Origin: Microbacterium croceum
GTDB lineage: Bacteria > Actinomycetota > Actinomycetes > Actinomycetales > Microbacteriaceae
DNA length: 64,000 bases
Assembly: GCF_023091245.1 (NCBI RefSeq)
Contig: NZ_JAHWXN010000001.1
Coordinates: forward strand, 992,001-1,056,000
Reading direction: 5' to 3'
In this document: positions 16,179-33,033 of the stretch, one piece after another
How positions within the stretch are numbered: position 1 is the first letter of the stretch
Layout of the letters: every line of letters starts with the position of its first letter
Notes under the pieces: generated by a model
What the model saw: the letters and a program-made list of their open reading frames with translations, nothing else
Database searches by the model: none
Told to the model about the DNA's origin: nothing
Translations under genes and position numbers: made by a program

Positions 16179-18053
16179 TCAGGCTCCCGGCACCTGCAGC
16201 ACAGTGGTGTTCTCGAGCTTCGGTCCGCGCCACACCGCCGCACGCCGAGGGGTCTGCGCGTCGGAGATCGTGGCACGCAGCACGAGTCCGTTCTTGAGGT
16301 TCTCCAGCCCGAAGTGGGCGCTGGGTTGATCCGACCGCGGGTTCCCGGCCGTCACGCTGATCTTGGTCTTCGCCGCCGTCACGTTGGTTCCCGCGCCGAG
16401 GTAGACGCCGAACCGCGGAGCATCCTCGATGGTGTTGTCGGAGATCGCGATGTTGCGGTGCACCCGTGAGGTGCCCACGGTGTAGGACGAGGTGAAGTGC
16501 TGGAGCATGATCGCGGCCGCCGAGGTCGGCCAGGGTACAAGTGTCTGGTCGAGACAGACCCGGCGGATCTGGTTGCCGCTGACGACGAGGTTCTCGGAGC
16601 CGATGGGGCCTTCGCCGTAGGCCGTGTCGTTCGCGATCCAGATGCCCCAGTTGGTGAGGTCGCTCATCCGGTTGTCGGTGATCACTCCGTTACTGGCCTT
16701 CATCCGCACACCCAGCCCGCGCGACTCCTCGATGACGTTGCCGGTGATCACGAAGCCCGAACCGGAGTAAGAGCGGTTGAAGACGTGATCGCCCGCCGCC
16801 GCGCCGGACACGGCAGACGCGATCGTGACGACCAGGGGAGTCGCGGCGCGCGGATCTCCGTCGACGGCCGTCACGCGGGCCGTGCCGCGCACGGTGCCGT
16901 CGCTCGACTGCACGATCTGGAGGGTATCTCCGACGGCGACTTCGGCAGAACCTCCCGCGAGGTGGAGCTTCTTGCCGCCCTCGCTGAGGGACTGGAGTGC
17001 ACGCAGCTGCGAGTAGACGTTCATGCCGTCGTCGTGCAGCCGCGCGAAACGGTTACCGACGACAGTCGGCCCTCGGCGCCCTCCGTGATGGTGGTACCCG
17101 TCGGCGTTCACGCTGACCCAGCGGCCGGAGCCTGCGCGCACGTCGACCACGGTGCGGCGCAGCACGGTCGCCTCCGAGTTGTTCGAGATGACGGCGGCTC
17201 CGGGGCCGGCGTGGATGATCAGGTCCTTCAGCGTCGTGTCGGCGGACTGGTGCAGGGCGATGGCGTTGCGGTCGCCGCGGTATCCGGTGGCGAAGCCGTC
17301 TCCGATGGCGATGTCGGGCATCCGCCCCCGATGCGCCGTGTCGACGGTGAACGTCCAGCGACCATCGGCGCCGGCCGTAGCGGGGTAGGAGACGGAGAAG
17401 GTCGACTGGACCCCGCGCTTGAAGAGTCCGCTCGCGGCGTCGTGCAGGGTGCCGTATCCGGCCCCGCTGAACAGCGTGCGGTCGGTGAGGGACGGGAACC
17501 CGGACAGGAGCTCGAGCTGGAAGGTGCCGGCTGTCGGATCGACCGCACGAATGATCCCCTGCGTGAAGGGCGGGGTCTCGTAGTCGAGCGTGAGGCCGGT
17601 GACCGTGATCCCGGTCGAGCGAGTGATGGCGATGCCGCCCTTGTGCGGGTCGAGCATGAGCAGCTCGGTCCCGTTGCCGAGCAGTTCGATGCGTGCTGTT
17701 TCGGTGAGTTCGAGGGCGTACCAGGAGGGCGTGCCGTCGTCGCCGATCCGGTAGACGCCGCGGTCGAACAGGACACGCGCGGTGTTCTTGGCGGATGCAG
17801 CGGTCCACGCCACTGCATCAGCGATCGTCCGTCGGATGGCCGGACCGCTGTCTGAGGCGCCGGGTGCGGCACCTCGGGCCGAGACCGGGAAATCCCTGCG
17901 GTTGCCGGCTCCTCCGGCGCGGACGGGGCCGCCGCTCGTGGCGCCCGCCGCCGCCGGGGATGCGGATCCGCCGATGACAGCGAGGCTGCCCGCGCCGACC
18001 GCGGTGCCGATCAGCAGTGTGCGTCGAGTCATCCTCTGTTCTGCGTCGTTCAT
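16179..18053 (-). CDS. Exported right-handed beta-helix protein (putative glycoside hydrolase or lyase), paralog 1
   Basis: A 624-residue Tat-exported protein: MTRRTLLIGTAVGAGSLAVI is a twin-arginine signal, ending near AAA at about residue 36. The body is a Pectin_lyase-fold beta-helix with repeated turns (VVGNRF, ITGNVIEES, VSGNQIRR, ISDNTIEDA). It shares with two other proteins in this window the blocks SVNADGYHHHGGRRGP and LHDDGMNVY, whose Asp pairs resemble catalytic positions in GH110-type beta-helix galactosidases (by memory, not alignment). An A/G-rich linker precedes the fold. It is divergent from the SGNH operon, sharing the dyad at 18103-18139. The substrate is unknown; a secreted polysaccharide-degrading role is inferred. 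Confidence 0.8.
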   Translation of the reverse strand: MNDAEQRMTRRTLLIGTAVGAGSLAVIGGSASPAAAGATSGGPVRAGGAGNRRDFPVSARGAAPGASDSGPAIRRTIADAVAWTAASAKNTARVLFDRGVYRIGDDGTPSWYALELTETARIELLGNGTELLMLDPHKGGIAITRSTGITVTGLTLDYETPPFTQGIIRAVDPTAGTFQLELLSGFPSLTDRTLFSGAGYGTLHDAASGLFKRGVQSTFSVSYPATAGADGRWTFTVDTAHRGRMPDIAIGDGFATGYRGDRNAIALHQSADTTLKDLIIHAGPGAAVISNNSEATVLRRTVVDVRAGSGRWVSVNADGYHHHGGRRGPTVVGNRFARLHDDGMNVYSQLRALQSLSEGGKKLHLAGGSAEVAVGDTLQIVQSSDGTVRGTARVTAVDGDPRAATPLVVTIASAVSGAAAGDHVFNRSYSGSGFVITGNVIEESRGLGVRMKASNGVITDNRMSDLTNWGIWIANDTAYGEGPIGSENLVVSGNQIRRVCLDQTLVPWPTSAAAIMLQHFTSSYTVGTSRVHRNIAISDNTIEDAPRFGVYLGAGTNVTAAKTKISVTAGNPRSDQPSAHFGLENLKNGLVLRATISDAQTPRRAAVWRGPKLENTTVLQVPGA

Positions 18054-18102
18054 GGACTGCCTCCCTCATCGTGGCGACGCGGCCCTGCGGCATCGTTGCC
18101 TG

Positions 18103-18139
18103 ATTCAAATAATCGGAAGGTAGCACCAATAGTTTGAAT
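18103..18139. promoter_or_regulatory. Inverted 14-bp half-sites between divergent operons
   Basis: ATTCAAATAATCGG (18103-18116) and CCAATAGTTTGAAT (18126-18139) face each other nine bases apart; the half-sites agree at 11 of 14 positions, with ATTCAAA perfect. It lies midway between the beta-helix gene and the SGNH operon, so one regulator could control both. The regulator is not identified; LacI and IclR proteins are encoded in the island. Confidence 0.6.
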
Positions 18140-18170
18140 ATGCGAGACTTTCCTGGTCGAAGGGATGGCA

Positions 18171-19349
18171 ATGACCGGCACCACCTCATCACGCCCGCCG
18201 TGCGGACCGGCCGAGATCCGGATCGTCGAGGGGGAGGGCGCGCAGCTCCCGCCGTACTCGGACGACGTATGGACCGGGCGCTACGTGCCTCGCGGCATCC
18301 TCGTGCCCTTCCGTGGTCAGGTAGGAACCCCTGCGCCCTCCGCGCTCGATCGGGCCTCCCTCGTCATCCGCGCCGGTGGGACCCTGCTGCGCGAGGGTGT
18401 CGACTACGTCGTCGACCCGGTTTTCGGAACGATCTGTCTGCCGACCGTCGATGCGGCGCCGTTGCCCGTGTCGATCGACTATCGATACTCCCTGCTGCGC
18501 ATCGACAGCATCGTCCGTGAGGGCTCGGGGGAGAAGCTGCTGCTGCGTGGCGTCTCGCACCTGACGAACCCGCACCCGCCGCACCCTGCCGTGGGAGGGG
18601 CCATCGAGGAGAACCTCCTGGTCGAGGCCTTCAGCGATGGGGTAGCGACGGTATATGCCCCGCGCGCTCCGCGGTGGCCGCTGCCCGCGGTGCCGGCGGG
18701 TGCCCTGCCGCGCGCGGCGCGAGTCCTCAACGACGGAGAGCCGCTCCGGCTGCTGTTCCTGGGAGACTCGATCACCGAGGGAGGGGATGCCTCGACCGAA
18801 GAGTCGACCTTCCGTGCGATCGCCGGAGGCCGGGTGCGGGACGTGCATCCTCAGGTGCAGGCTTCGTATGCCGCGACCGGCGGCTCGCGTTCGGTGCAGT
18901 GGCTCGACGACCGCGACGGCTCGTGCGACTGGAACCGGGTGACGGAGGCCGCGCCCCACGTCACCGTCGTGGAGTTCCTGAACGATTCCTACCTCGACCC
19001 CGCGCAGTGGGAGCCCGCCTACGACGAGCTCCTGTCGCGGCTGCGCTCTGCGGGCAGCGAGGTGGTGCTGCTGACGCCGACGTTTGCGATGCGCTCGGCC
19101 ATGAACGGCTCTGAGAAGACCGATGACGGGCGGCCCTACGTCCGTTTCGTGCGCGACTACGCCGCGCGCACTGGCGTTCCGCTGATCGACGTGTCTGCGC
19201 GCTGGGACAGGCTTCGCGACGAAGGGCTCCCGTACTGGACTCTGCTCGCGAACGGGATCAACCACCCCGATGACCGCGGGCATCGTCTGACCGGCGAGTT
19301 CATCGCGGACGCCCTGCTGACGCTGCTCTCCCCGGCGGCGGACGCATGA
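18171..19349 (+). CDS. SGNH/GDSL-family hydrolase with N-terminal beta domain
   Basis: A 392-residue protein. Residues about 1-170 form an all-beta N-terminal region with no hallmark I recognise. The C-terminal SGNH hydrolase has FLGDSITEGG (Ser nucleophile, block I), FLNDS where block III GxND would lie, and NHPDDRGH (catalytic Asp-His, block V). Such enzymes usually remove acetyl or other ester groups from sugars. There is no signal peptide, so it should act in the cytosol. I chose the ATG at 18171 because AAGGG is six bases upstream; 18165 is the alternative. First gene of a coupled three-gene operon. Confidence 0.82.
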   Translation: MTGTTSSRPPCGPAEIRIVEGEGAQLPPYSDDVWTGRYVPRGILVPFRGQVGTPAPSALDRASLVIRAGGTLLREGVDYVVDPVFGTICLPTVDAAPLPVSIDYRYSLLRIDSIVREGSGEKLLLRGVSHLTNPHPPHPAVGGAIEENLLVEAFSDGVATVYAPRAPRWPLPAVPAGALPRAARVLNDGEPLRLLFLGDSITEGGDASTEESTFRAIAGGRVRDVHPQVQASYAATGGSRSVQWLDDRDGSCDWNRVTEAAPHVTVVEFLNDSYLDPAQWEPAYDELLSRLRSAGSEVVLLTPTFAMRSAMNGSEKTDDGRPYVRFVRDYAARTGVPLIDVSARWDRLRDEGLPYWTLLANGINHPDDRGHRLTGEFIADALLTLLSPAADA

Positions 19350-20173
19350 GCGGGCGCCGAGAGGACTCCGCACTCATCGCTATCGGTGATTCGCTGACCG
19401 AGCACGGCACCTGGCCGGAGCTGCTCGCGGGGGCCGCCGGGTGGCAGATCGAACGGATCGCGCATGCCGGGCAGACGTCGACCGAGATTGCATTGCGCCT
19501 CGGGGTGATCAGGATGACGTTCTCCGCGGCCGGGGCCGTGCAGGAGGACCGAATCCCGCTGAAGCCGGTGGGCCCGTCCGGAGACTTCCGTCACCACATC
19601 GACTCCGGGATGGAGGACATCGCGGTGCCGGGAACGCTGGCCGGTCGTCCGGGCCTCCTCACCCACCGCGTGGGCGGGGCCGCGCTCGAGGGGTGGGAGT
19701 TCGCGTCCGACGGCGCTGCTCCCACGGCGGACGCGGTGCTCGACTTCCGTGCCGAGGTGCCGGTCTTCTCCGCACCCGCGGCGTTCGTCATATGGTGCGG
19801 ACGCAACAACCCCGGACCGGTCGCTGCGCGCGACGTCGCCGCGATCGTCGCGGAGCTGCACGCACGCCACTCCGCGGCGCGGTGCCTCGTGCTGGGGGTG
19901 CACGCGGCATCGTTCGAACCGATCGGCTCCGAGGGGGTCGCGCTCGTCGACGGACTGAACGCGACGCTCGCGCAGACCTTCGGGGATCACTTCGTCGACC
20001 TGGGTGCCGTCTTCCGCGAGGCGGCGCCCACCTCCGACGGCACGACCGCGGCGCAGCTGCGCAGCGACGACGTGCATCTGAACGCGGCAGGAGACGCGGT
20101 CGTCGCTCGAGCGGTCGCGCGTCGGCTGTCGGAGCTGGGGTGGTGGCCCACCGGCATGACGCTGCCGTCATGA
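19346..20173 (+). CDS. Second SGNH/GDSL-family hydrolase
   Basis: A 275-residue single-domain SGNH protein: IAIGDSLTEH (Ser nucleophile) near the N-terminus, WCGRNNPG (the GxN-type block III with RNN), and DDVHLNAAGD (catalytic Asp and His). It probably de-esterifies a carbohydrate inside the cell. It shows little sequence resemblance to its neighbour outside these blocks, so the two may remove different ester groups. Its start overlaps the previous stop and its stop overlaps the next start, each by ATGA. Confidence 0.85.
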   Translation: MSGRREDSALIAIGDSLTEHGTWPELLAGAAGWQIERIAHAGQTSTEIALRLGVIRMTFSAAGAVQEDRIPLKPVGPSGDFRHHIDSGMEDIAVPGTLAGRPGLLTHRVGGAALEGWEFASDGAAPTADAVLDFRAEVPVFSAPAAFVIWCGRNNPGPVAARDVAAIVAELHARHSAARCLVLGVHAASFEPIGSEGVALVDGLNATLAQTFGDHFVDLGAVFREAAPTSDGTTAAQLRSDDVHLNAAGDAVVARAVARRLSELGWWPTGMTLPS

Positions 20174-21036
20174 GGGAGGAGCGGGTGCAGTGGCGCGGCA
20201 TCGCGGCGCTTCGCTGTTCCGCCGGAGGGACATCGGTGGTCATCGTGCCCGCTCGCGGAGCCAAGATCGTCTCGCTGCGTGATCGCACCGGCCGGGAGTG
20301 GTTGGCGCAGGGCGACGGGCGCCCCGTACCCGGGGGTCCTGCGACGGCGTTCGAGGATGCGGAGATGTGCGGATGGGACGAGTGTGTCCCGACCATCGAT
20401 CGGTCCCGCACGACGACGGGTCTGATCGCCCCGGACCACGGCGACGCTTGGAATCGCGCCTGGCAGGAGAACCCCGATGGGGCACTGTCGACGCATCTGC
20501 CCTCCGTGGACGCGGCCTTCGAACGTCGGATCGGGCTCGACGCGGACGGCACGCTCACCCTGTCCTACCGGGTCCAGGCGGGACCGGCGGGAGCGGACAT
20601 CCTGTGGGCGGCGCATCCGCTTTTCCTCCGAGAGGAGGGGGACCGGATCCGCCTCGATGCCGAGAAGCCGCTGTGGGACGTCTCGGCTCCGACCGCCGCG
20701 CCCGCGGCAGGTGATCCGGGCGAGCGGGTGAACGCGCGGATGCCGAAGGGGACATCTGCCAAGTACTACACGGATCCGGAGGAGCGGCCGCGGTGGGCGC
20801 GCATCGATCGCCGGGATGGCGCCTCGCTCCGGCTCGAGTGGGAAGGGCGCGCGGTGCGGACGTTGGGTGTCTGGCTCGACCGCTCCCGCTTCGCGACCGA
20901 GAATGTGGTCGCCTTCGAGCCGTCCACCGGATGGTACGACTCCGTTGACGCGGCCTCCGCCGTGGATCGGGTGCTTCGAGTGGGGCCGGGCGGAACGGCG
21001 GAGTGGTCGCTCGTCGTCCGTCTCACCACGTCATAG
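20170..21036 (+). CDS. Aldose 1-epimerase (mutarotase) superfamily protein
   Basis: A 288-residue galactose-mutarotase-like beta-sandwich protein: VVIVPARGAKIVSLRDRTG, GWDECVPTID, PDHGDAWNRAW (His in the usual active-site place) and LWAAHPLF. It probably interconverts sugar anomers or binds a sugar. The catalytic C-terminal Glu of mutarotases may be the Glu in VVAFEPSTGWYDS. The frame is open upstream, but ATG 20170 overlaps the SGNH stop by ATGA and starts the homologous part. It is the last gene of the operon. Confidence 0.78.
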   Translation: MREERVQWRGIAALRCSAGGTSVVIVPARGAKIVSLRDRTGREWLAQGDGRPVPGGPATAFEDAEMCGWDECVPTIDRSRTTTGLIAPDHGDAWNRAWQENPDGALSTHLPSVDAAFERRIGLDADGTLTLSYRVQAGPAGADILWAAHPLFLREEGDRIRLDAEKPLWDVSAPTAAPAAGDPGERVNARMPKGTSAKYYTDPEERPRWARIDRRDGASLRLEWEGRAVRTLGVWLDRSRFATENVVAFEPSTGWYDSVDAASAVDRVLRVGPGGTAEWSLVVRLTTS

Positions 21037-21113
21037 TGCTGCGCGAGTCAACGTTTGCTCTTTTGAGATGCAGACAAGCCTCATGCCCTTTGATTTCGAA
21101 CCGCAGTGTTTGC

Positions 21114-21138
21114 TACGGTGTTGAGCAACCGGTTTACC
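21114..21138 (+). promoter_or_regulatory. Promoter with LacI-type operator, site 1
   Basis: A -10 TACGGT (21114-21119), with TTTGAT at 21089-21094 as a possible -35, is followed at once by TTGAGCAACCGGTT (21121-21134), centred on the palindrome AACCGGTT. Similar sites occur at 29224 and 29313. It should place the dehydrogenase-dehydratase operon under the LacI protein of the island (inference). Confidence 0.65.
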
Positions 21139-21161
21139 AAAATGAAGGACCGAGGTCGAAG

Positions 21162-22040
21162 ATGACGAACACTCCCCGTACCGTGCTGGTGACCGGCGCG
21201 GACGGCCGCATCGGCCGGGCCACGGTAGCCCGGCTCCGTTCCGACGGATGGCGGGTCATCGCTCTCGCCCCGAGATTCCGCGCTCTCACCGCAGACGACG
21301 CCGAGCTGCGCGTGGGCGATGCGACGAACGAGGCGGATGTCGCGGCGGCTCTCGACGGCGTCGATGCGCTCGTGCACCTGGCTGCCGTCCCGCACTGGGA
21401 GCACGGAACCCCGTACGAGGTGTACACGACCAACGTCGTCTCGACCTTCAACGTGCTGGTCCAGGCGGCGCAGCGGGGCATCCACCGGGCCGTCATCGCC
21501 AGCAGCATCCAGGCGACCGGGGTGCCGGGAAACCATCACGACGTCCTCCCGGCCTACTACCCGATCGACGAGTCGCTCCCGACCGTCCACGACGAGTGGT
21601 ACTCGCTGTCGAAGTACTCCGACGAACTCACGGCGCAGATGGTCGCCAGCCGTTGGGGCATGTCGATCATCGCGCTGCGCTTCCCGTGGGTCGACGACGC
21701 TGATGCGCTGCGTGTGGTCGGAGAGGAGTGGACGCGTGACCCGGAGCAGGGGGTGAAGCTGGGGTGGTCGTACCTCGATGTGCGCGATGCGGCCACCGCG
21801 GTGGCCCGCAGTCTGGAGGCCGACATCGACGGGGCCGTCGTCGTGCAGCTCGCCGCTCCTCAGACGCTGGTGCCGTTCGATACGGAGGAGCTGTTGGAGG
21901 CCTATGCCCCTGATGTCCCCCGGCAACGGGTGTTCCCCGGACGCGCGGTTCCGGTCAGCACGGATCGCGCGGGACACCTCCTGGGGTTCGTCGCGGCCCA
22001 CGAGATCGAGCCTGCGCCCGTCGTCGAAGCGGCAGGCTGA
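21162..22040 (+). CDS. NAD(P)-dependent extended SDR, probable sugar or uronate dehydrogenase
   Basis: A 292-residue extended SDR: TGADGRIGRAT (nucleotide-binding loop), LVHLAAVPHWE, catalytic Tyr-Lys in YSLSKYSDE. The short length and the LAA-VPHWE and SSIQATG segments resemble the uronate dehydrogenase branch of the NAD-epimerase family, which oxidises C1 of a sugar to a lactone. Immediately upstream of a DgoD-like dehydratase and with a SMP-30 lactonase in the island, it is the best candidate for the first oxidation. An epimerase role cannot be excluded. GAGG precedes the start. Confidence 0.78.
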   Translation: MTNTPRTVLVTGADGRIGRATVARLRSDGWRVIALAPRFRALTADDAELRVGDATNEADVAAALDGVDALVHLAAVPHWEHGTPYEVYTTNVVSTFNVLVQAAQRGIHRAVIASSIQATGVPGNHHDVLPAYYPIDESLPTVHDEWYSLSKYSDELTAQMVASRWGMSIIALRFPWVDDADALRVVGEEWTRDPEQGVKLGWSYLDVRDAATAVARSLEADIDGAVVVQLAAPQTLVPFDTEELLEAYAPDVPRQRVFPGRAVPVSTDRAGHLLGFVAAHEIEPAPVVEAAG

Positions 22041-22043
22041 ATC

Positions 22044-23192
22044 GTGAGGATCCTCGGGGTCGAGTCGTTCATCCTCACCGACCGCCGGCTGCTGGTGCGG
22101 ATCGGCACCGACACCGACCTGGTCGGATGGGGGGAGGCCACCCTGGAGACCTGGGTCGGACCGGTCGCCGCGGTCGTGCGGCAGATGTCCGACTACCTGG
22201 TTGGTCAGGATCCGCGAAGGATCACGGCGCACTGGCAGGTGCTCACGCGGGGTGGCTTCTACCGCGGCGGTCCGGTCATGTCCTCGGCGGTCTCCGGGAT
22301 CGATCAGGCGCTCTGGGACCTCGCAGGCAAGCGGCTCGGTGTGCCGGCGCATGAGCTGCTGGGTGGTCCGGTGCGCTCCGCCGTGCGGCTCTACGCGCAC
22401 GCGAACGTCGACGGGCGCATCGGTGACCTCGCGCGTGCGAGAGAGCTCGCCGCCGAGGGGTACACCATGGTCAAGGTCGCCCCCACGGAACCCACCCGCT
22501 TCGTAGACACGGAGGCGACGATGCGGCGCCTGGTCGACGAACTGGAGGAGCTGCGCGCGGCGATCGGCGATGGCGTCGACATCGCGGTCGATCTGCACGG
22601 CCGCTTCTCGATTCCGCAGTCGCGGCGCTTCCTCGCGCGCACCGAGCACGTCGGCCTCGCTTTCGTGGAGGAGCCCCTGCGGCCCGAGCACTCCGCGCAC
22701 ATCGGAGAGCTCGTGCGCAGCACCTCGACCCCGATCGCCACGGGCGAGCGCCTGTACTCGCGCGTCGAGTTCGATCCGGTGCTGCGGGCCGGGATCGCCT
22801 TCGCGCAGCCGGACCTCTCGCACGCCGGGGGGATCTCCGAGGTGATGCGCATCGGTGCCCTCTCCGAGATCTTCGATGTGCAGCTCGCGCCGCACTGCCC
22901 GCTCGGCCTCGTCGCGTTCGCGGCGTGCATCCAGGTGGATGCGGCGACCCCGAATGCGGCAGTGCAGGAGACCGTGATCGACTTCGCCGCGCTGCGCGAC
23001 AGCGACGAGCATGCCTACGTCCGCAACAGGGAAGACTGGGTGCCGGTCGACGGATATCTTCCGGTGCCGCAGGGCGTCGGCCTCGGCCTCGACATCGATG
23101 AGCAGCTCGTGCGGGAACGCGCGATCGAGGTCGCACCGTCGCTCACCCTCTGGTGGAGTGATCCGCGAGATGGGGGTTACGTCGAATGGTGA
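22044..23192 (+). CDS. Sugar-acid dehydratase, enolase superfamily (DgoD-like)
   Basis: A 382-residue mandelate-racemase/enolase family enzyme. Metal ligands and catalytic residues are visible: VDLHGRFS (Asp, with the extra His typical of the galactonate dehydratase group), FVEEPLR (Glu), ATGER (Glu) and LAPHCPLGLVAFAACIQVDA (catalytic His). GGFYRGG and SGIDQALWDLAGK agree with the D-galactonate dehydratase family. It would remove water from an aldonate to give a 2-keto-3-deoxy acid. GTG start three bases after the dehydrogenase. The exact aldonate is unknown; the motif set favours a galacto-configured acid. Confidence 0.85.
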   Translation: MRILGVESFILTDRRLLVRIGTDTDLVGWGEATLETWVGPVAAVVRQMSDYLVGQDPRRITAHWQVLTRGGFYRGGPVMSSAVSGIDQALWDLAGKRLGVPAHELLGGPVRSAVRLYAHANVDGRIGDLARARELAAEGYTMVKVAPTEPTRFVDTEATMRRLVDELEELRAAIGDGVDIAVDLHGRFSIPQSRRFLARTEHVGLAFVEEPLRPEHSAHIGELVRSTSTPIATGERLYSRVEFDPVLRAGIAFAQPDLSHAGGISEVMRIGALSEIFDVQLAPHCPLGLVAFAACIQVDAATPNAAVQETVIDFAALRDSDEHAYVRNREDWVPVDGYLPVPQGVGLGLDIDEQLVRERAIEVAPSLTLWWSDPRDGGYVEW

Positions 23193-24778
23193 GCGGGACG
23201 GCGGACGAGGGTGTGTGGCACCGGCAGGTGCCGGTCTCGGATGACGGCGGCGCGACGCTGCGCGCAGCGATCCGTGATGCGTGCGAGTGGACCTCCGCCG
23301 CCGGGTCCCGCTCGGCGGTGATCGAGCTCGCGGCCGGCGTGCATCGGATCGATCCTCCGGTCGGCGACGCGGCCGGCGCGGCGATCGTCATCAGCGATGC
23401 CTCCCGCGTGACCCTCACCGCCCCACAGGCGGAGCTGCTGTTCGCGGACCCGCATCGCGAGGCGATCAGCGTCCGGGGCTCCACGGACGTCGTGCTCGAC
23501 GGCTTCGTCCTCGACTATGCAACGCCGTCGTTCACGCAGGGGGTGATCACGCACGTCGACACCGAGGCATCGCGCTTCCGATTCGCCCCCGCGCCGGGCT
23601 TTCCCGACTTCTCGGATCGGGTGCTGTTCACGGGAACCGGGTACGGCACCCTGCGCGATCCGCGCACGGGCGGGCTGAAGCCCGAATCCCGCCAGACCTT
23701 CATGATCGAGTACGCCGCGGAGCCCGCTGTGGACGGGAGCTTCCTGGTGACCGTCGAGGCCTCCGATCGCGGCTGGATGTCGCACATCGAGCAGGGTGAC
23801 GGGTTCGTCGTCGGTCACCGCGGAGATCAGCACGGCATCCGGATACAGGAATCCGACAGCGTGACCGTGCGCTCGGTGACGATCCATGCCGCGCCCTGCG
23901 CCGCGATCCTCGCGCACGAATCCTCCGGCACCGTTCTGCGGGATGTGACGGTCGCGCGGCGAACCGGGTCGACGCGGTGGATCAGCAGCAACGCCGACGC
24001 GGTGCACTGCCAGGGCGGGCGTCGTGGGCCGTCGATCGTGGGATGCCGTTTCGAGGGGATGCACGACGACGGTGTCAACCTCTACGTTCACGCTCTGACG
24101 CTCTCAGGCCTCGGCGAACGCACGCTGGTGCTCGACGGCGAAGGGCCTGTGCGACAGGGAGACCTGCTCCAGCTGGTGGAGGCGTCGACCGGCACCGTGC
24201 TCGCCGAGGTCGAAGTCGCTGAGCTCGTCGCCTCCGAACCGCGGCTCGTGATCGTCGATCGTGATCTTCCCGCATCCGTCGAGGTCGGGGCGGCCGTGTA
24301 TAACCGGTCGAACGCCCTCCCGGGCTTCCGCATCGCCGGATCGCTCTTCCACGACTTCCGCGGTATCGGCGTGCGGCTCAAAGCCAGTGGGGGCGTCATC
24401 GAGGACTGCCGCTTCGAGAACCTCTCGGGGTGCGGCCTCTGGATCGCCAACGACCCCGGGTGGTCGGAGGGACCGCTCGGGTCGCGAGACGTCGTGGTCG
24501 AGGGAAACACCTTCCGAGCGACACCGGCCGACGTGTCGTTGCGGTCGTGGCCGCACTCCGCCGCCACCGTCATGATCGAACTCTTCGACGGCGCCGACGG
24601 TCCGGCTGCCGGCCGCGCGCACGAACGCATCGCGTTGAAGGACAACGACATCCAGCAGCGGGCGGCAGCGGCGGTGTTCGTGGGCGGCGCGACCGACGTC
24701 TCCATCGCCGCGACACGGATCGACCAGGGCGGCGACTCCTGGCTCGCGACCAGAGACAGCGACCTGATGGTCATCTGA
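23186..24778 (+). CDS. Cytoplasmic right-handed beta-helix protein (putative glycosidase), paralog 2
   Basis: A 530-residue beta-helix protein related to those at 16179 and 29374 over its whole length, but without the Tat signal, so it is predicted to be cytosolic. It retains SNADAVHCQGGRRGP and MHDDGVNLY, and the turns IVGCRF, IAGSLF, IEDCRF, VEGNTF. The seven-base overlap with the dehydratase (ATGGTGA, 23186-23192) couples their translation, arguing that it feeds this pathway from imported oligosaccharide. It may be a hydrolase or lyase; no activity is known for the family as far as I can tell. Confidence 0.8.
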   Translation: MVSGTADEGVWHRQVPVSDDGGATLRAAIRDACEWTSAAGSRSAVIELAAGVHRIDPPVGDAAGAAIVISDASRVTLTAPQAELLFADPHREAISVRGSTDVVLDGFVLDYATPSFTQGVITHVDTEASRFRFAPAPGFPDFSDRVLFTGTGYGTLRDPRTGGLKPESRQTFMIEYAAEPAVDGSFLVTVEASDRGWMSHIEQGDGFVVGHRGDQHGIRIQESDSVTVRSVTIHAAPCAAILAHESSGTVLRDVTVARRTGSTRWISSNADAVHCQGGRRGPSIVGCRFEGMHDDGVNLYVHALTLSGLGERTLVLDGEGPVRQGDLLQLVEASTGTVLAEVEVAELVASEPRLVIVDRDLPASVEVGAAVYNRSNALPGFRIAGSLFHDFRGIGVRLKASGGVIEDCRFENLSGCGLWIANDPGWSEGPLGSRDVVVEGNTFRATPADVSLRSWPHSAATVMIELFDGADGPAAGRAHERIALKDNDIQQRAAAAVFVGGATDVSIAATRIDQGGDSWLATRDSDLMVI

Positions 24779-24804
24779 GCCGGGGATCGAGCCTGGTGCG
24801 GTGT

Positions 24805-25851
24805 CTAGACGAACGGAAGCTGCTGCTCGTCGGGCGCGCCCTTGGCTCCCGACGAATACCCGAGCACGAGCTCGCACGGCACTCGACGTTCGTTGTCCTC
24901 CGTGGGCGAGTCATTGATCATGCGCACGAGCAGGTCTGTCGCCGCGATGCCCACATCGACCAGTCGAGGATCGACCGTCGTGAGGAATCGTGCCTCGGAG
25001 TCGGAGTACTTGACCCAGTTGTCATGTCCGACGAGAGCGACGTCCTCCGGAACACGGATGCCGTTGCCGACCAGGTAGCGGGCGGCCCCGAGTGCGATGA
25101 GGTCATTGCCGCACACGATGCCGTCGATGGTCGGATCCGCCTGATGCAGACGTTCCGCCGCGCGATAGCCCCACGCGCCCGACCAGTCGCCGAACTCGCG
25201 ACGGCTCTCGGCCACCGGCACGCCGGCGGCCTGCAGGACGGCGTCGGCACCTTCCAGGCGGTTCTCGACCGCGTTGGAAGCACGGTGAGCGGTGATGTAG
25301 GCGATGTTCTTCCGCCCCTGCGTGAGCAGGTGCTCGGCCGCCACACGACCGGCCATGAGGTCATCGGGGACGACGACCTCATCGCTGTCGGTGTCGGTGA
25401 TGCCGTGCGCGTACACGACCGGCACGTCGAAGTCCGCGGTGACGGAGCGCAGCGGGATCTCGTTGCCGTCGCCGACCACGATCACCCCGTCGACATGGCG
25501 GGCGCGCAGCTTCTTGATGTTCTCGGCTCGCGCCGCGCCTTCGCGACCGTCGTCGTACATCATGGCCGCGACGTCGTGGCGGCTGAGCTCGCTCGCGATA
25601 CCGGCGATCACGGGCATTGAGAAGATACCCGTGGAGTTCTCGGTCAGAAGCCCGACCGTGAAGCTGCGCCCGAGGGCGAAGTACTGTGCCAGCGCGTTCG
25701 GACGGAACTCGAGCCGCTGGGCTGCTTCGAGGATCGCCTCTCTCGTCTTCGGTGAGACGCGCCCGCCGCCGTTGAGGACGCGGGAGACGATCGATGTCGA
25801 CACCCCTGCCACGGCGGCCACATCCTTGAGGGTCACACCCTTCTTACCCAT
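24805..25851 (-). CDS. LacI-family transcriptional repressor
   Basis: A 348-residue LacI/GalR protein. The N-terminal HTH reads VTLKDVAAVAGVSTSIVSRV with the hinge helix around PNALAQYFALG, then a periplasmic-binding-like effector domain (VIAGIASELSRHDVAAMMYD, VDGVIVVGDG, AYITAHRASNAVENRLEG, LVGHDNW). It is the last gene after the two sugar permeases, 15 bp from the nearer one, so it is probably made with the importer it represses. Likely operators are the TTGnnCAACCG sites at 21121, 29224 and 29313. Confidence 0.92.
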   Translation of the reverse strand: MGKKGVTLKDVAAVAGVSTSIVSRVLNGGGRVSPKTREAILEAAQRLEFRPNALAQYFALGRSFTVGLLTENSTGIFSMPVIAGIASELSRHDVAAMMYDDGREGAARAENIKKLRARHVDGVIVVGDGNEIPLRSVTADFDVPVVYAHGITDTDSDEVVVPDDLMAGRVAAEHLLTQGRKNIAYITAHRASNAVENRLEGADAVLQAAGVPVAESRREFGDWSGAWGYRAAERLHQADPTIDGIVCGNDLIALGAARYLVGNGIRVPEDVALVGHDNWVKYSDSEARFLTTVDPRLVDVGIAATDLLVRMINDSPTEDNERRVPCELVLGYSSGAKGAPDEQQLPFV

Positions 25852-25866
25852 GTCGTTCCGTTCTCG

Positions 25867-26805
25867 TCATCCCTTGATCCCACCAGACATGCTGACACCT
25901 TTCAGGATCTGCCGCTGGAAGATGAGGAACACGGCGATCGGAATGAGCAGTCCGAGCAGCATTGCCGACATCTGCAGACTCAGGTCGGTCTTGCCCGCGA
26001 TGCGCGCCAGAGCCACCGAGATCGGCTGCAGCTCGCTGCCCGGCAGCACGAGCATGGGCCACAGGAAGTCCTTCCACGAATTGAGGATCGTCAGCACGGC
26101 GATCACCCCGAGGATCGACTTCGAGAACGGCAGCACGATGATGAAGAACATACGCAGCGGACCCACGCCGTCGACGCGGGCGGCTTCGATGATCTCGCGC
26201 GGGATCTCGTCGAAGAAGCGCGTGACGATGAGCACGGTGAACGCGTTGGCCGCTGCCGGCAGCCACACGGCCCAGTAGGTGTCGATCAGCGACACTCCCA
26301 CGAGGGGCACGTCGACGACGGTCAGATAGAGAGGAACGAGGGAGATCACGCCGGGGACGAACAGCGTCACCAGGATCGCGCCGGAGAGGAACTTCGCCCA
26401 GCGGGGGCGGAGGATGCTGATCACGTAGGCGAGCGACGCGGTCACGACGACCGTGGAGATGGTTGAGCCCAGCGCCATCACGGCGGTGTTGGCGAGGTAG
26501 CGGCCGACCTGGATCTGCTCCCACGCGGCGGTGAGGTTGCCCCACTGAATGCCGCTGGGGAACCACGCGAACGGCTGCGAGATAGTGTCCTGCGTCGTGG
26601 AGAGCGCGGCTTTTGCGAGCCACAGGATCGGTCCGACGCCGGCGATGACGAGGAACGAGAAGAACGCGATCTGCAGCGTCGTCATCGTCGCCTTGACGCT
26701 CGGACGACGTCGGTCGGCATCCGAGATCGCGGACCGTTCCGGAGCCTCCGCCGCCTTGCGACGTGCGCGGGCGGGCGTGACGGCGATCAGGCGGGTGTCG
26801 GTCAT
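25867..26805 (-). CDS. Carbohydrate ABC importer permease (MalG type)
   Basis: A 312-residue permease with six hydrophobic segments and a long basic cytoplasmic N-terminus. The EAA loop reads EIIEAARVDGVGPLRMFFII, and FLWPMLVL and the C-terminal KGVSMSGGIKG are typical of MalG-like subunits. It pairs with the MalF-type subunit upstream. I start at ATG 26803-26805, which has GGAG close upstream and overlaps the previous stop by ATGA. No ATPase gene is in the cluster, so a shared MsiK-like ATPase is expected (known for actinobacterial sugar importers). Confidence 0.92.
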   Translation of the reverse strand: MTDTRLIAVTPARARRKAAEAPERSAISDADRRRPSVKATMTTLQIAFFSFLVIAGVGPILWLAKAALSTTQDTISQPFAWFPSGIQWGNLTAAWEQIQVGRYLANTAVMALGSTISTVVVTASLAYVISILRPRWAKFLSGAILVTLFVPGVISLVPLYLTVVDVPLVGVSLIDTYWAVWLPAAANAFTVLIVTRFFDEIPREIIEAARVDGVGPLRMFFIIVLPFSKSILGVIAVLTILNSWKDFLWPMLVLPGSELQPISVALARIAGKTDLSLQMSAMLLGLLIPIAVFLIFQRQILKGVSMSGGIKG

Positions 26806-27779
26806 GATCGGCTCCACTTCCGGGTGGCGAGCAAGTACACGACCGAGACGATGGCGAGTGCGATCGCCAGCAGGAACGACAGCGCGGTGGCCGCGCCGTA
26901 GTCGCCGTACTGGAAGGCGTAGCTGTAGATGAGCATGAGCACCGTGACGGTGGCGTTGTCCGGGCCTCCGCCGGTGAAGACATAGGGCTCCGTGAAAACC
27001 TGGAGCGTGCCGATCAGCTGCAGCAGGACCAGTGCGAGGATCACGCCGCGCAGCTGGGGGAGGGTGACGTGCCAGATGCGTCGCCAGATGCCGCTGCCGT
27101 CGATCTCGGCCGCTTCGTACAGCTCCGGCTTCACGGAGGTGATCGCGGCGAGGTAGATGATGGCTGTGCCGCCGGCGGTCGCCCAGATCACCTCGAGCAC
27201 GATCGATGGCATCGCGCTCGCGCTCGAGTTGAGCCAGGGGAGCGGTCCGATGCCGACAGTGCCGAGGATCTGGTTGAAGAGTCCATCGGCGGAGGGGTCG
27301 TAGAAGTACTTCCAGAGCAGGATCGCGACGATCGGCGGGATGACGACGGGAAGGTATGCGAGCGTGTTGAAGAGCGCCCGACTGCGACGCAGCTCGGCCA
27401 TGTAGACGGCGAGGACCAGAGGTGCAGGGAATCCGAACAGCATGCCCAGCACGGCGAAGTAGACGGTGTTGCCGACCGCCTGCGGGAGCACGGGATCGGA
27501 GAGCACGTAGGTGAAGTTCGTGAGCCCCACCCAGGTCGCGTCGTCGATCAGGTTGGTGCGTTGGAACCCCATGATCGCGCCCGAGACGATCGGGCCCCAG
27601 GAGAAGTAGGTGAAGGCGAGGATGCCGGGGATCGCGAACAGCACCGGGACCAGCCCGCCGCGTCGGTACCAGCGCACGATCGACGGGCGTCGTCGGGGGA
27701 CGAGCCGGGGGCTGTGCGCCTCGGCCTCGCGTTCGGGCGAGGTGTCCGGTGCCAGGGTGGCGCTCGATGTGGGGGGCAT
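26802..27779 (-). CDS. Carbohydrate ABC importer permease (MalF type)
   Basis: A 325-residue permease with about six membrane helices; GLVPVLFAIPGILAFTYFSW opens the first, and the EAA loop is ELYEAAEIDGSGIWRRIWHV. The periplasmic loop region TGGGPDNAT is characteristic. It forms the importer with the MalG-type subunit and the lipoprotein encoded just upstream (27838-29196). A 13-bp hairpin separates it from the binding-protein gene. Confidence 0.92.
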   Translation of the reverse strand: MPPTSSATLAPDTSPEREAEAHSPRLVPRRRPSIVRWYRRGGLVPVLFAIPGILAFTYFSWGPIVSGAIMGFQRTNLIDDATWVGLTNFTYVLSDPVLPQAVGNTVYFAVLGMLFGFPAPLVLAVYMAELRRSRALFNTLAYLPVVIPPIVAILLWKYFYDPSADGLFNQILGTVGIGPLPWLNSSASAMPSIVLEVIWATAGGTAIIYLAAITSVKPELYEAAEIDGSGIWRRIWHVTLPQLRGVILALVLLQLIGTLQVFTEPYVFTGGGPDNATVTVLMLIYSYAFQYGDYGAATALSFLLAIALAIVSVVYLLATRKWSRS

Positions 27780-27799
27780 GGCTGCTTCTCCGGTAGTGA

Positions 27800-27829
27800 G
27801 GTCGGCGGCGCCGTGGGGCGCCGCCGACC
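27800..27829 (-). terminator. Intercistronic hairpin between binding protein and permeases
   Basis: Perfect 13-bp GC-rich arms (27800-27812, 27817-27829) with a four-base GTGG loop lie in the 58-bp gap between the binding-protein stop and the permease start. It has no T-run. Such elements usually protect upstream mRNA or partly stop transcription so that binding protein exceeds permease. Confidence 0.65.
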
Positions 27830-27837
27830 GGTGACTG

Positions 27838-29196
27838 CTATCGCGCGAGCTTGGTGTTCACGGCGTCCTGAGCAGCCGTGAGCAGCGCGGAGATGTCCTG
27901 GTTCGGCTCGTTGAGAACCTTCTGCAGCACGGTGTCCAGTTCGCCGTAGACCTGCTGGGGCTGGCTGGTCGGTTCCGGTACGAGCTCCTGCTCGTCCATC
28001 ACGTCGCGGTATCCGCTGAACTGCTCGATCGGGACGTTGTAGAACTCGCTGACCCAGGAGTCGTACTCCTTGCGCACGGCGGGGTCGAGCGGAGACAGCC
28101 CGGGAACGCCGATCAGGCTACCGGCCGCAACGTTCTTCTTGACCGTCTCCACGGCGACGTCCTTGTCGGTGTAGGCGCGGAAGTTGTTGAACTCGATCCA
28201 GCGGAGTCCGGCTTGGATCTCGGCCTGGGTCGCGCGGGGGTTGAACACCTCGACGGCACCGCCGAGCAGCGTGCGCTGGATGCCGTCGTGCTCCGGGATC
28301 GCGGTGAAGCCGTAGTCGTCGGGGTTCATGCCGAACTGCTGGACCGCGGCAGGGAAATGCTGCGAGACGCTGAGGAACATGCCGACCTTGCCGGCGGCGA
28401 AGTCCTGGATCAGGTCGTTGAAGCCGTAGAGGAACTTGCTCCCCATCGACTTGTCCTCCCAGCGCATGTCATTCACGAGATCGAGGTAGTCGACCATCCC
28501 GGGCTCGTCGAGCGTCGCCTCGGTGCCGTCCTCGTTCGAGAGCGTGGCGCCGAAGCTGTACGCGCCGGCCGTCGTCATCCAGCCGCCGACGTGCTCGATC
28601 GAGTACGTGGAGTACCCGGCCGCTCCGGTCGCGGCCGAGATCTTCTTGGCGTACTCGCGCACCTCGTCCCAGGTCTTCGGTCCCTGTTCGGGGTCGAGGC
28701 CGGCGGCTTCGAACAGCGCGCGGTTGTAGGCGAGGCCGACGGAGTAGACGTCGAGCGGCACGCCATAAAGGCGGTCGTCGCCATCGGTGACGACCTGCAT
28801 GACGCTCGGGTTGAGGGTGTCGGCGAATCCGACACTGTCGAGCGCGTCGGTGATGTCGGCGATCTGGCCGTTGCGGATCAGGGTGGCGGGTTCCGTGAAC
28901 GGCACGCCGAGCAGCGTCGGCATGGTACCGCCAGCTACCATCGCCTGGAATCCGGTGGCATCCCACTTGCTCTCGCTGAGCTCGACGGTGATGTCGGGAT
29001 TCTCCTTCTCGAACGCCTTGACCTGGTCCTCGACGAGGGCGCGAAGCTCTGGCTGGTCGGCGCCGGGCACGTCGCCGATGCTGATCGTGACGGGACCGGA
29101 CTCCTCCGGTTCGGAGGCGGTCCCGCATGAGGTGAGGGCAAGCCCCAGCACAGCCGTGCCGGCGAGGGCGGACACAAGAATGCGTCTGGATTTCAT
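27838..29196 (-). CDS. Extracellular sugar-binding lipoprotein of the ABC importer (family 1 SBP)
   Basis: A 452-residue binding protein. Its signal MKSRRILVSALAGTAVLGLA ends in LTSC, with lipidation at Cys24. The mature protein has family 1 features: PDITVELSESKWD, FQAMVAGGTMPTLLGVP, YGVPLDVYSVGLAYNRALFE and KTWDEVREYAKK. It captures the oligosaccharide or sugar released outside. The start is the ATG at 29194-29196 with AGGAG upstream; an in-frame extension of 24 codons is rejected. Two LacI-type sites lie upstream. Confidence 0.93.
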   Translation of the reverse strand: MKSRRILVSALAGTAVLGLALTSCGTASEPEESGPVTISIGDVPGADQPELRALVEDQVKAFEKENPDITVELSESKWDATGFQAMVAGGTMPTLLGVPFTEPATLIRNGQIADITDALDSVGFADTLNPSVMQVVTDGDDRLYGVPLDVYSVGLAYNRALFEAAGLDPEQGPKTWDEVREYAKKISAATGAAGYSTYSIEHVGGWMTTAGAYSFGATLSNEDGTEATLDEPGMVDYLDLVNDMRWEDKSMGSKFLYGFNDLIQDFAAGKVGMFLSVSQHFPAAVQQFGMNPDDYGFTAIPEHDGIQRTLLGGAVEVFNPRATQAEIQAGLRWIEFNNFRAYTDKDVAVETVKKNVAAGSLIGVPGLSPLDPAVRKEYDSWVSEFYNVPIEQFSGYRDVMDEQELVPEPTSQPQQVYGELDTVLQKVLNEPNQDISALLTAAQDAVNTKLAR

Positions 29197-29223
29197 CGTT
29201 GAAGCTCCTGTCGGGTGCAACGG

Positions 29224-29275
29224 TTGATCAACCGGTTGTTCACTTACCATCGACCACGGCGGGTGCATCTGTCAA
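29224..29275 (-). promoter_or_regulatory. Importer promoter with LacI-type operator, site 2
   Basis: On the minus strand TTGACA (29275-29270) and GATGGT (29251-29246) are 18 bp apart. TTGATCAACCGGTT (29224-29237), containing the perfect palindrome CAACCGGTTG (29229-29238) and TTGATCAA, follows within about ten bases of the expected start of transcription, a good repressor position. Confidence 0.65.
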
Positions 29276-29311
29276 GTGACTATCAGGATAAGGGCATCGA
29301 TCGACGAGACA

Positions 29312-29327
29312 GTTGCGCAACCGTTGA
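29312..29327. promoter_or_regulatory. LacI-type operator, site 3
   Basis: GTTGCGCAACCGTTGA includes the palindrome GTTGCGCAAC (29312-29321) and the core CAACCG shared with sites 1 and 2. It is 50 bp upstream of the start of beta-helix paralog 3 and about 75 bp from site 2, so looping between the two is possible. Confidence 0.55.
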
Positions 29328-29373
29328 CTCATGTGCTCCACTGTGAACGTCCCTCAACGAGGAGGAGAGAGAA

Positions 29374-31197
29374 ATGGTCGAGTTCGATCGTCGTGCATTC
29401 ATGATCGGCGCTGCCGGAGTTCTGGCCGGGGTGGCCGCCGGCGTCGCGGTGCCATCGCTGGCGTCAGCGGGAGTCCCACCCGCATCCGGCACGCATCACA
29501 TCTTCGCCGTGGACGACTACGGCGCATCGCCCGGCGGGTCGGCCGACAGCGCTCCCGCGATCCGGGCGGCCATCGCCGCCGCGGCCTCGTGGACGGGCGG
29601 CGGCGCGAGCCGGACGGCATCCGTCGTGTTCTCCTCCGGGGTGTACCGGATCGACCGGGCGTCCACGGCCTCGTGGTACGCGCTCGAGGTCGACGGCGTC
29701 GCCCGCGTCGCGCTCTACGGATCCTCGACGACCCTCCTCGTGACCAATCCGTACGCCGGCGCGCTCAGTATCGCCCGCTCCACGAGCATGCGCGTGGAGG
29801 GGCTCACGATCGACTACGCGACCGTGCCGTTCACGCAGGGCACGATCACCGCGATCGACACCGTGGCCGGCACTGTCGATCTGCAGCTGTTGAGCGGATA
29901 CCCGACCCTCGCCGACGCGGCGCTGTTCCCAACGTCGAACTACGGCACACTGCGCAATGCGACGACGGGGCTGATGAAGCGCGGACCGCAGATCACGTTC
30001 TCGTACACGCATACCGGTACTGTCCTCCCCTCGGGGCGCTGGCGGCTCACGATCGCCCCGGACCATCGCCCGCAGATGGGGGCGATGGCTCTCGGCGACG
30101 GCTTCGTCACCGGCTTCCGCGGCAACTGGCACGGCATCGCGATCTATCGCTGCACCGACGTCACTGTCGCGGCGGTCACGATGTACGCCTCGCCCGGGGC
30201 CGCCTTCATCCCGAGCGACTCCGACGGCACCGTCATCCGCGACTGCATCGTGACGCGCAAGCCCGGGTCGAACCGATGGATCAGCGCGAACGCCGACGGG
30301 GTGCACAATCACGGCGGGAGGGTCGGTCCGCGTATCTTCGGCAACACCTTCGAGTCGCTGCACGACGACGGTCTCAATATCTACAGCACCTCGCGCGCGG
30401 CGACCTCGGTGTCGGGGGCGACGGTCGTGCTCGGAGGCGGTGCCATGCAGCTCGCTCCGGGCGACGCGGTGCAGATCGTCAACACGGCCACGGGCACCGT
30501 GCGCGGTGAGACGACCGTCGTCACCGTGACGGGTGACAGCCTGGCCGGCGGGCCGGTGAGCGCGTCCCTGGCCGCAATGCCGTCGGGTACGGCCCCGGGT
30601 GATCAGATGTTCAACCGGTCGTTCAGCGCACCGGGAGCCGACGTGCAGTACAACGTCTTCCGCGAATTGCGGGGTCTCGGTGTGCGACTGCGCACGAGCG
30701 GTGCCTACGTGCATGCGAACGAGATGTTCGATCTCGCCTACTGGGGCATATGGGTGGCCAACGATCCCCAGTACAACGAGGGACCCGTCGGCAGTGTGGA
30801 TTCTGTCATCGAGCGCAACTCGATCGTCCGCCCGTGCATCGACCGCAGTGTGCTGGGCTGGCCTTCGGCCGCGGCCGGGATCATGGTCGAGAACCTCCGC
30901 GACGACTACGAGGGGGGCGCGAGCAAGGCCCACCACGGTCACATCGTGAAGGACAATTACATCGAGGATCCACCTCGGTTCGGCATTTTCGTCGGGGGCG
31001 CCGAGAGCATCACCGTATCCGGCAACACCATCGCCTCGACGGCGGGGAATCCCCGCACGGGTGCGCCGACCGCCATGTTCGGCACCCGCAACTCGCACGC
31101 GGTCGCTCTGAGCGCGCTGACCGTGCACGAGTACGCCGCAAGTCCTCGACCCATCGTCTGGACGGGAACGGGGGTGACCGGCTTCACGCACACGTGA
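29374..31197 (+). CDS. Exported right-handed beta-helix protein (putative glycosidase), paralog 3
   Basis: A 607-residue protein with a twin-arginine signal (EFDRRAFMIGAAGVLAGVAA) ending near ASAG (about residue 33). The rest is a Pectin_lyase-fold beta-helix similar throughout to the proteins at 16179 and 23186: DDYGASPGGSADSAPAIRAA at the start, SANADGVHNHGGRVGP and LHDDGLNIY in the centre, then VRLRTSGAYVHANEMFDLAY. Strong GAGGAGGAGAG leader sequence precedes the ATG. Divergent from the importer and under a LacI-type site, so it probably supplies the importer's substrate outside the cell. Confidence 0.82.
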   Translation: MVEFDRRAFMIGAAGVLAGVAAGVAVPSLASAGVPPASGTHHIFAVDDYGASPGGSADSAPAIRAAIAAAASWTGGGASRTASVVFSSGVYRIDRASTASWYALEVDGVARVALYGSSTTLLVTNPYAGALSIARSTSMRVEGLTIDYATVPFTQGTITAIDTVAGTVDLQLLSGYPTLADAALFPTSNYGTLRNATTGLMKRGPQITFSYTHTGTVLPSGRWRLTIAPDHRPQMGAMALGDGFVTGFRGNWHGIAIYRCTDVTVAAVTMYASPGAAFIPSDSDGTVIRDCIVTRKPGSNRWISANADGVHNHGGRVGPRIFGNTFESLHDDGLNIYSTSRAATSVSGATVVLGGGAMQLAPGDAVQIVNTATGTVRGETTVVTVTGDSLAGGPVSASLAAMPSGTAPGDQMFNRSFSAPGADVQYNVFRELRGLGVRLRTSGAYVHANEMFDLAYWGIWVANDPQYNEGPVGSVDSVIERNSIVRPCIDRSVLGWPSAAAGIMVENLRDDYEGGASKAHHGHIVKDNYIEDPPRFGIFVGGAESITVSGNTIASTAGNPRTGAPTAMFGTRNSHAVALSALTVHEYAASPRPIVWTGTGVTGFTHT

Positions 31198-31219
31198 GGC
31201 CGGCTCCCCCGCCGACGCG

Positions 31220-32074: not shown

Positions 32075-32108
32075 GTTGGCGTGTGCCTCTCTTGTAAGCG
32101 CCGGGTCG

Positions 32109-32897: not shown

Positions 32898-32916
32898 CGC
32901 ACTCCCTGCTAATGTT

Positions 32917-32961
32917 CAATCTATCAGATTGAGATTCCATATTTTGGAACTATGGTGTTCC
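32917..32961. promoter_or_regulatory. Cluster of three dyads, candidate IclR operators
   Basis: CAATCT-ATC-AGATTG (32917-32931), TTCCA-TATTT-TGGAA (32935-32949) and GGAAC-TATGGT-GTTCC (32946-32961) are perfect inverted repeats; the last two overlap. The stretch is AT rich and lies between iclR and the divergent SDR gene, suitable for control of both directions. Confidence 0.65.
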
Positions 32962-33033
32962 GACTGTCACGAGACCATCTTGCTCCCCCGCGGAGTGTGG
33001 GGCCGGGAGGGCGGACGCGGAGATGAGGACGAC

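Follow-up and report, generated by a model that had tools for sequence, protein, structure and literature searches.

What three paralogous parallel beta-helix proteins contribute to a compact set of sugar-processing genes is the question raised by a 64,000-nt stretch of the Microbacterium croceum genome (contig NZ_JAHWXN010000001.1, positions 992,001 to 1,056,000), referred to here as the window. The proteins, named BH1, BH2 and BH3, are probably inverting alpha-glycosidases with an altered -1 site, serving a block of genes that appears to take up and oxidatively break down one sugar compound. This reading is based on homology, predicted fold, catalytic-residue conservation, pocket differences, a separate clade and a conserved gene block. 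That the proteins share the mechanism class of glycoside hydrolase family 110 (GH110) is highly likely. The three genes are located as follows.

16179..18053, minus strand: BH1, parallel beta-helix protein related to GH110, with a twin-arginine-type N-terminus and presumed exported
23186..24778, plus strand: BH2, paralogue of BH1 and BH3, without a leader and presumed cytosolic
29374..31197, plus strand: BH3, parallel beta-helix protein related to GH110, with a twin-arginine-type N-terminus and presumed exported

All three open reading frames (ORFs) are real and uninterrupted, although the original prediction had omitted that BH1 lies on the minus strand. The full-length paralogy that it described is borne out at about 38-46% identity. 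In a six-frame search of the own genome, BH1 recovers BH3 (46% over residues 9-613, E 2.6e-160) and BH2 (41% over residues 63-566, E 3.2e-113) and no fourth copy, while in the alignment BH2 and BH3 are 39% and 45% identical to BH1. Two shared motifs had been proposed: HDDGxNxY is found in each protein, and NADGxHxxGGRxGP holds only when rewritten as NAD[G/A]xHxxGGRxGP, because BH2 carries Ala at the G/A position (NADAVHCQGGRRGP). The two predicted twin-arginine (Tat-type) leaders are apparent by eye at the N-termini of BH1 (TRRTLLIG) and BH3 (DRRAFMIG), and none is visible in BH2. BH2 was also fairly described as coupled to a dehydratase, since BH2 starts inside the dehydratase gene (GalD), with an overlap of 7 nt.

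The proposed likeness to GH110 is evident in sequence, in the predicted fold of BH1 and BH2, and in the catalytic residues. Specifically, a phmmer search aligns BH3 with the GH110 structure 8pvs (E 3.9e-11), and a profile of the BH clade matches nine GH110 sequences in the PDB at E<=4.9e-22, with no other match below 0.01. When models of BH1 and BH2 are compared with GH110 and polysaccharide lyase (PL) folds, GH110 comes out on top and PL matches are partial: the top 15 Foldseek matches of each model are GH110, aligned over 484-541 residues, with best E values of 1e-28 (BH1) and 1e-25 (BH2). Chains of GH28 align with the two models across 304-365 residues only. Other rows include 5mqp (E 7e-8) and 5zru (E 3e-6), which we take to be GH141 and GH87-type proteins, respectively. 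PMC7939477 likens GH110, in its beta-helix and catalytic machinery, to GH28, GH49 and GH87, families of clan GH-N or likened to it, and the BH proteins display both the parallel beta-helix and the catalytic Asp set of this clan.

Domain models place the proteins less precisely. The Pfam GH110 barrel domains PF23763 and PF23764 (GLAA-B) are undetected in BH1-3 at E<=1. As a control, PF23764 scores above cutoff in four GH110-type loci of the genus (L028-L031), PcGH110A, PcGH110B and a Flammeovirga protein, and it is absent from L032, which clusters with GH110; the barrel-domain test is therefore imperfect. The Pfam model Glyco_hydro_28 remains below its cutoff of 22.9 bits in BH1 (12.3 bits) and BH2 (13.7 bits), with no match listed for BH3. 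The NosD and generic Beta_helix models exceed their cutoffs in BH1 and BH3, but NosD does so in PcGH110B, itself a GH110, which makes this NosD match uninformative. A search of the BH proteins against NCBIfam at E<=1 returns repeat models only. Matches in PHROGs are confined to tail spikes (BH1 E 3.5e-4, BH3 E 9e-7, BH2 none), taken as a generic beta-helix signal, and a scan of viral contigs yields no BH relative. The sole match in a phage collection is an unannotated human-faecal phage contig (MT835799.1:14339-15178), 25% identical to BH3 residues 106-369 (E 5e-9).

The active site of GH110 offers a closer comparison. According to PMC7939477, D344 of PdGH110B is the likely general acid, and D321 and/or D345 serve water activation; the -1 subsite comprises N85, R265, N348, R453, E480, W486 and E488, and the +1 subsite R451, R208 and K207. 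The same paper states that every GH110 enzyme characterised up to then is an alpha-1,3-galactosidase and that the -1 pocket is remarkably conserved among them. In PMC12549532, the pocket around C6 is further described as shaped by the residue at the E480 position (R460 in GH110A).

These positions were tabulated for 26 sequences, numbered after full-length P. carrageenovora GH110B from its plasmid record (L052, offset 0). N85, R265, D321, D344, D345, N348, R453, W486 and E488 are all present in the 12 GH110 rows. The 11 BH rows without exception keep D321, D344, D345 and N348; in BH1, D318, D341 and D342 correspond to D321, D344 and D345, and in BH2 the counterparts are D271, D294 and D295. 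This match to the catalytic residues known from GH110 crystal structures bears indirectly on whether the conserved Asp and His residues face a common groove. Every BH row lacks the N85-bearing loop, and the R453 column is Leu or Ile in 11/11, at a point where the alignment is uncertain and moving RG[LI]G by two would bring an Arg to 453. The galactose pocket at -1 (N85, R265, R453, W486, E488) is thus not found, as none of the 11 rows has N85 or R453. For R265 there is a candidate equivalent one residue earlier, in an uncertain part of the alignment where the neighbouring residue may serve, and for W486/E488 a candidate [WY]xE within a shorter turn, one or a few columns off. The R451 column is Arg in all BH rows and in six of the 12 GH110 rows, the other six having Pro.

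Judged from these alignments, the catalytic chemistry of the BH proteins looks intact, whereas the sugar site does not. Because the -1 pocket appears remodelled, with the N85 loop gone, R453 replaced by Leu or Ile and [WY]xE kept, the sugar or decoration bound there is probably not plain alpha-D-galactose. Set beside GH110 enzymes of known structure (PdGH110B 7jw4/7jwf; 8pvs; AgaBb 8yk1-3; PpaGal 9i4f; GH110A 9beh/9bev), the BH proteins are alike in chain-length fold, three Asp, N348 and [WY]xE, and differ in the missing loop, the changed R453, an R265 one residue off register, the undetected barrel domains and a clade of their own.

This clade is resolved in a maximum-likelihood tree of 26 rows, in which GH110 (12 rows, 100/100), BH (11 rows, 100/99) and three haloarchaeal relatives (100/99) form distinct groups. 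The BH and haloarchaeal rows (14) unite at 100/100, apart from 12/12 GH110 rows, and no BH row is placed on the GH110 side; the tree is unrooted and reflects a single sampling, 18 of its 26 rows are flagged for deviating composition, and one haloarchaeal row sits on a long branch. An earlier 21-row tree gives the same separation. Additionally, all 14 BH and haloarchaeal rows contain [PS]F[TA]QG, a motif that none of the 12 GH110 rows has. The BH rows represent 11 of the 12 copies in M. croceum and three relatives (G167, G191 and G263), BH2 of G263 being left out for its broken frame; a weak match in G1012 (58 residues, E 3.1e-4) was also omitted, and ends were trimmed from L030, from BH1 of G263 and from one haloarchaeal protein. 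The GH110 label derives from the PDB for 3/12 rows, from carrageenan-plasmid records, PMC7939477 and PMC12549532 for PcGH110A and PcGH110B, from Pfam barrel matches for L028-L031 and the Flammeovirga protein, and from similarity alone for L032 and a Persicobacter protein. BH1, BH2 and BH3 each cluster across species, which indicates that the triplication predates these species; BH1 and BH3 are the closest pair (98/95).

The haloarchaeal relatives are plasmid-borne proteins (P0004, P0005 and L050:1711-3360) whose annotation goes no further than "right-handed parallel beta-helix repeat". Like the BH proteins, they carry the PFTQG signature, lack the N85 loop and keep the three Asp; unlike them, they have lost N348 and E488 (3/3) and W486 (2/3), and the R453 column is Arg in one of three. 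At the loci L034:11749-13626, L035:11683-14037 and L050:1711-3360, PFTQG and the three Asp persist and most other pocket residues are lost. No sugar-catabolic genes are annotated beside the two haloarchaeal genes seen with 12-kb flanks, where mainly transposase, plasmid-replication and hypothetical genes are found.

Consequently, the proposal of a new enzyme family stands in part. The clade stands apart and its sugar pocket is altered, but it shares the GH110 chain architecture, which makes it sister to a known family rather than an unknown type of enzyme. Because they depart from GH110 in the -1 pocket, in the Pfam barrel domains and in their place in the tree, the BH proteins are not assigned to it. 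No description of the clade was found in searches of an open-access library, which covered neither subscription papers nor CAZy.

The same evidence bears on what else the proteins could be. They might be divergent GH110 exo-alpha-1,3-galactosidases that release ordinary D-galactose, with other side chains replacing the lost pocket residues. Such enzymes would fit the full-length fold match, the retained catalytic set and N348, the galactonate-type dehydratase encoded next to BH2, and the uniform activity of the GH110 enzymes characterised by the time of PMC7939477, as that paper reports. However, the loss of the N85 loop and the change of R453 in 11/11 copies, against 12/12 GH110 rows that keep both, together with the separate clade and the undetected barrel domains, leave this possible but doubtful. 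Some beta-helix proteins are non-enzymes, and the NosD and Beta_helix matches of BH1 and BH3 could be read as those of sugar-binding or structural proteins; with the catalytic triad and N348 invariant in 11 copies of three paralogues, and NosD equally above cutoff in PcGH110B, a non-catalytic role is very unlikely. Least probable of all are beta-helix lyases or epimerases of the alginate-epimerase or polysaccharide-lyase type, rejected since their matches are limited to part of the chain (best Foldseek E 7e-9 for BH1 and 1e-9 for BH2, versus 1e-28 and 1e-25 for GH110) and the hydrolase's three Asp are invariant.

The genes around those of the BH proteins are listed below in order along the window.

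18165..19349, plus strand: GDSL1, GDSL/SGNH hydrolase (Pfam PF13472, E 1.8e-18), no visible signal peptide
19346..20173, plus strand: GDSL2, second GDSL/SGNH hydrolase (Pfam PF13472, E 9.1e-10), no visible signal peptide
20173..21036, plus strand: protein X, unassigned, with a sub-threshold DUF4432 match only (E 0.027, 13.7 bits versus a cutoff of 32.5)
21162..22040, plus strand: SDR1, NAD-dependent epimerase/dehydrogenase family (PF01370, E 4.8e-22 for ORF 21003-22040; PDB 4id9, E 3e-13)
22044..23192, plus strand: GalD, enolase-superfamily sugar-acid dehydratase of galactonate-dehydratase type (3rr1, E 3.3e-91)
24805..25851, minus strand: LacI-family regulator (Pfam PF00356, E 7.2e-16)
25867..26817, minus strand: ABC sugar importer permease 2 (Pfam PF00528, E 4.3e-8)
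26802..27779, minus strand: ABC sugar importer permease 1 (Pfam PF00528, E 6.2e-18)
27838..29268, minus strand: extracellular solute-binding protein (SBP) of the importer (Pfam PF01547, E 7.2e-29)
31220..32221, minus strand: FAH-family hydrolase (8gsr, E 6e-77)
32109..32897, minus strand: IclR-family regulator (Pfam PF01614, E 2.7e-35)
32929..33708, plus strand: SDR2, short-chain dehydrogenase (Pfam PF13561, E 1.7e-49)
33705..34544, plus strand: SMP-30/gluconolactonase-family lactonase (Pfam PF08450, E 3.8e-61 for ORF 33360-34544)

GalD passes the NCBI equivalog cutoff for D-galactonate dehydratase (NF010624, 420.7 bits versus 311). The nearest solved relative of the FAH hydrolase is L-2,4-diketo-3-deoxyrhamnonate hydrolase (8gsr), and the protein falls short of the cutoff for 2,4-didehydro-3-deoxy-L-rhamnonate hydrolase (NF053535, 332 bits versus 500). 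SDR1 is a candidate aldose dehydrogenase and SDR2 a candidate 2-keto-3-deoxy-acid C4-dehydrogenase. Protein X was considered as a mutarotase and rejected, its sole PDB match having E 0.36 and DUF4432 remaining below cutoff.

Two sites may link these genes in regulation.

21047..21058, minus strand: 12-mer GCAAACGTTGAC, candidate LacI-type operator upstream of the SDR1-dehydratase-BH2 genes
29317..29328, plus strand: 12-mer GCAACCGTTGAC, the operator candidate again, in the SBP/BH3 gap

The window holds no exact match of GCAAMCGTTGAC other than these two sites, from which the pattern was itself derived, and at <=2 mismatches there are 9 in the window versus 7.8 expected. All three relatives, G167, G191 and G263, carry the SBP/BH3 site unchanged. 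The SDR1 site is unchanged in G167 and differs at one position in G263 and at two in G191. With the LacI gene between them, the two sites suggest one regulon. The pattern is not present in the BH1/GDSL1 gap. This gap contains an inverted repeat, TTCAAA...TTTGAA (18104-18109 and 18133-18138), which is kept in G167 and G191 and is possibly the site of a different regulator.

A pathway can be outlined in which exported BH1 and BH3 would cut or trim a polymer outside the cell, its fragments would enter via the ABC importer, the two GDSL esterases would strip acyl groups inside the cell, and cytosolic BH2 would free the monosaccharide. In each BH protein, the Asp matching PdGH110B D344 would act as general acid, while water would be activated by the Asp residues that match D321 and D345. 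As GDSL1 and GDSL2 show no visible signal peptides, the imported fragments may be acylated. The leader peptides, the importer and the shared candidate operator make this two-compartment model, outside and inside the cell, plausible. SDR1, the SMP-30 lactonase, the galactonate-type dehydratase, SDR2 and the FAH hydrolase could then carry out oxidation and cleavage without phosphorylation to pyruvate and a hydroxy acid. By analogy, the route may run from sugar to lactone, acid, 2-keto-3-deoxy acid and 2,4-diketo acid, and finally to pyruvate and hydroxy acid. Activity, anomer, localisation, polymer and step order are all inferred, as is the sugar, which would be galacto-configured and possibly without a 6-OH.

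The non-phosphorylative route of the L-rhamnose/L-fucose type uses a 2,4-diketo-3-deoxy-acid hydrolase. The block resembles it in holding two SDRs, a lactonase, an enolase-superfamily dehydratase and an FAH hydrolase, and differs in that its dehydratase is galactonate-type and its FAH protein does not reach the cutoff of the L-rhamnonate family. R453 contacts the 6-OH and the ring oxygen; its loss, taken with a 6-deoxy-type FAH hydrolase and a dehydratase of galacto type, makes it tempting, as a guess only, to think of a 6-deoxy-galacto sugar. A bolder proposal, offered tentatively, is that the BH clade and its haloarchaeal cousins form a new glycoside hydrolase family beside GH110. By losing R453 and the N85 loop, it would no longer recognise the 6-OH, ring oxygen and O3/O4 of galactose and would instead accept a galacto-sugar that is 6-deoxy or modified in another way, for example D-fucose or L-arabinopyranose, with a two-compartment trio acting on an acylated polymer and feeding a self-contained oxidative route.

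The distribution of the block was surveyed in the genus and in samples of the phylum and family, scoring the best 3-4 candidates per genome. BH profile matches occur in 8 of 366 genomes of the genus, four of which (own included) have three BH genes and four one distant relative, the GH110-type L028-L031. The phylum sample has one match in 396 genomes, the own, and the family sample three in 299, two of them distant. Two of the genomes recovered carry names, Microbacterium oxydans BEL4b and Microbacterium sp. Se63.02b. GalD copies above 80% identity are confined to the four trio genomes among 361 searched (next 53%), and the best match of the FAH hydrolase in 57 other relatives is 65%. Near the GH110-type genes of L028-L031 lie an ABC permease (~29-31% to those of the window) and an enolase-superfamily dehydratase (~26-30% to GalD). 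The pairing of GH110 with a sugar-acid dehydratase may be a wider theme in the genus.

The order BH1-GDSL1-GDSL2-X-SDR1-GalD-BH2-LacI-permeases-SBP-BH3-FAH-IclR-SDR2 is identical in G167, G191 and G263. In tblastn comparisons, G167 and G263 have the SMP-30 gene next in line, and G191 lacks it, showing only a short match inside SDR2. By the same method, htaA and purM flank the block in the window, G191 and G263, and in G167 neither is found within 10 kb to its left or 6.4 kb to its right (L008:11876-21875, L036:3555-10000), so there the block occupies a different site. Its left border is a gene for a 1153-aa protein with HtaA domains (12636-16097), beside FecB/FecCD/ABC uptake genes, also in G191 and G263. 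In six relatives without the trio purM was located, and four of these were compared: three have FecB, HtaA and purM in that order, with HtaA-purM gaps of 1.1, 1.4 and 3.0 kb and no block genes in these stretches, and in the fourth the stretch compared contains no HtaA. Given the same gene order at two sites and these trio-less HtaA-purM stretches, 16179-34544 (~18.4 kb) behaves as one movable block. In G263 (L027, L038), the coding sequences of GDSL1, GDSL2, the homologue of 20173-21036, GalD, BH2 and LacI are all split between reading frames, and BH1, SBP, BH3, FAH and IclR are intact. Since purM and a transporter gene outside the block are also split, sequence error seems likelier than decay.

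A sister clade that keeps the catalytic triad and alters the -1 pocket provides a direct way to study how specificity changes on the GH110 scaffold. It also turns some proteins annotated as right-handed parallel beta-helix repeat-containing into testable glycosidase candidates, and in the compact block the downstream enzymes could serve as a read-out of the released sugar.

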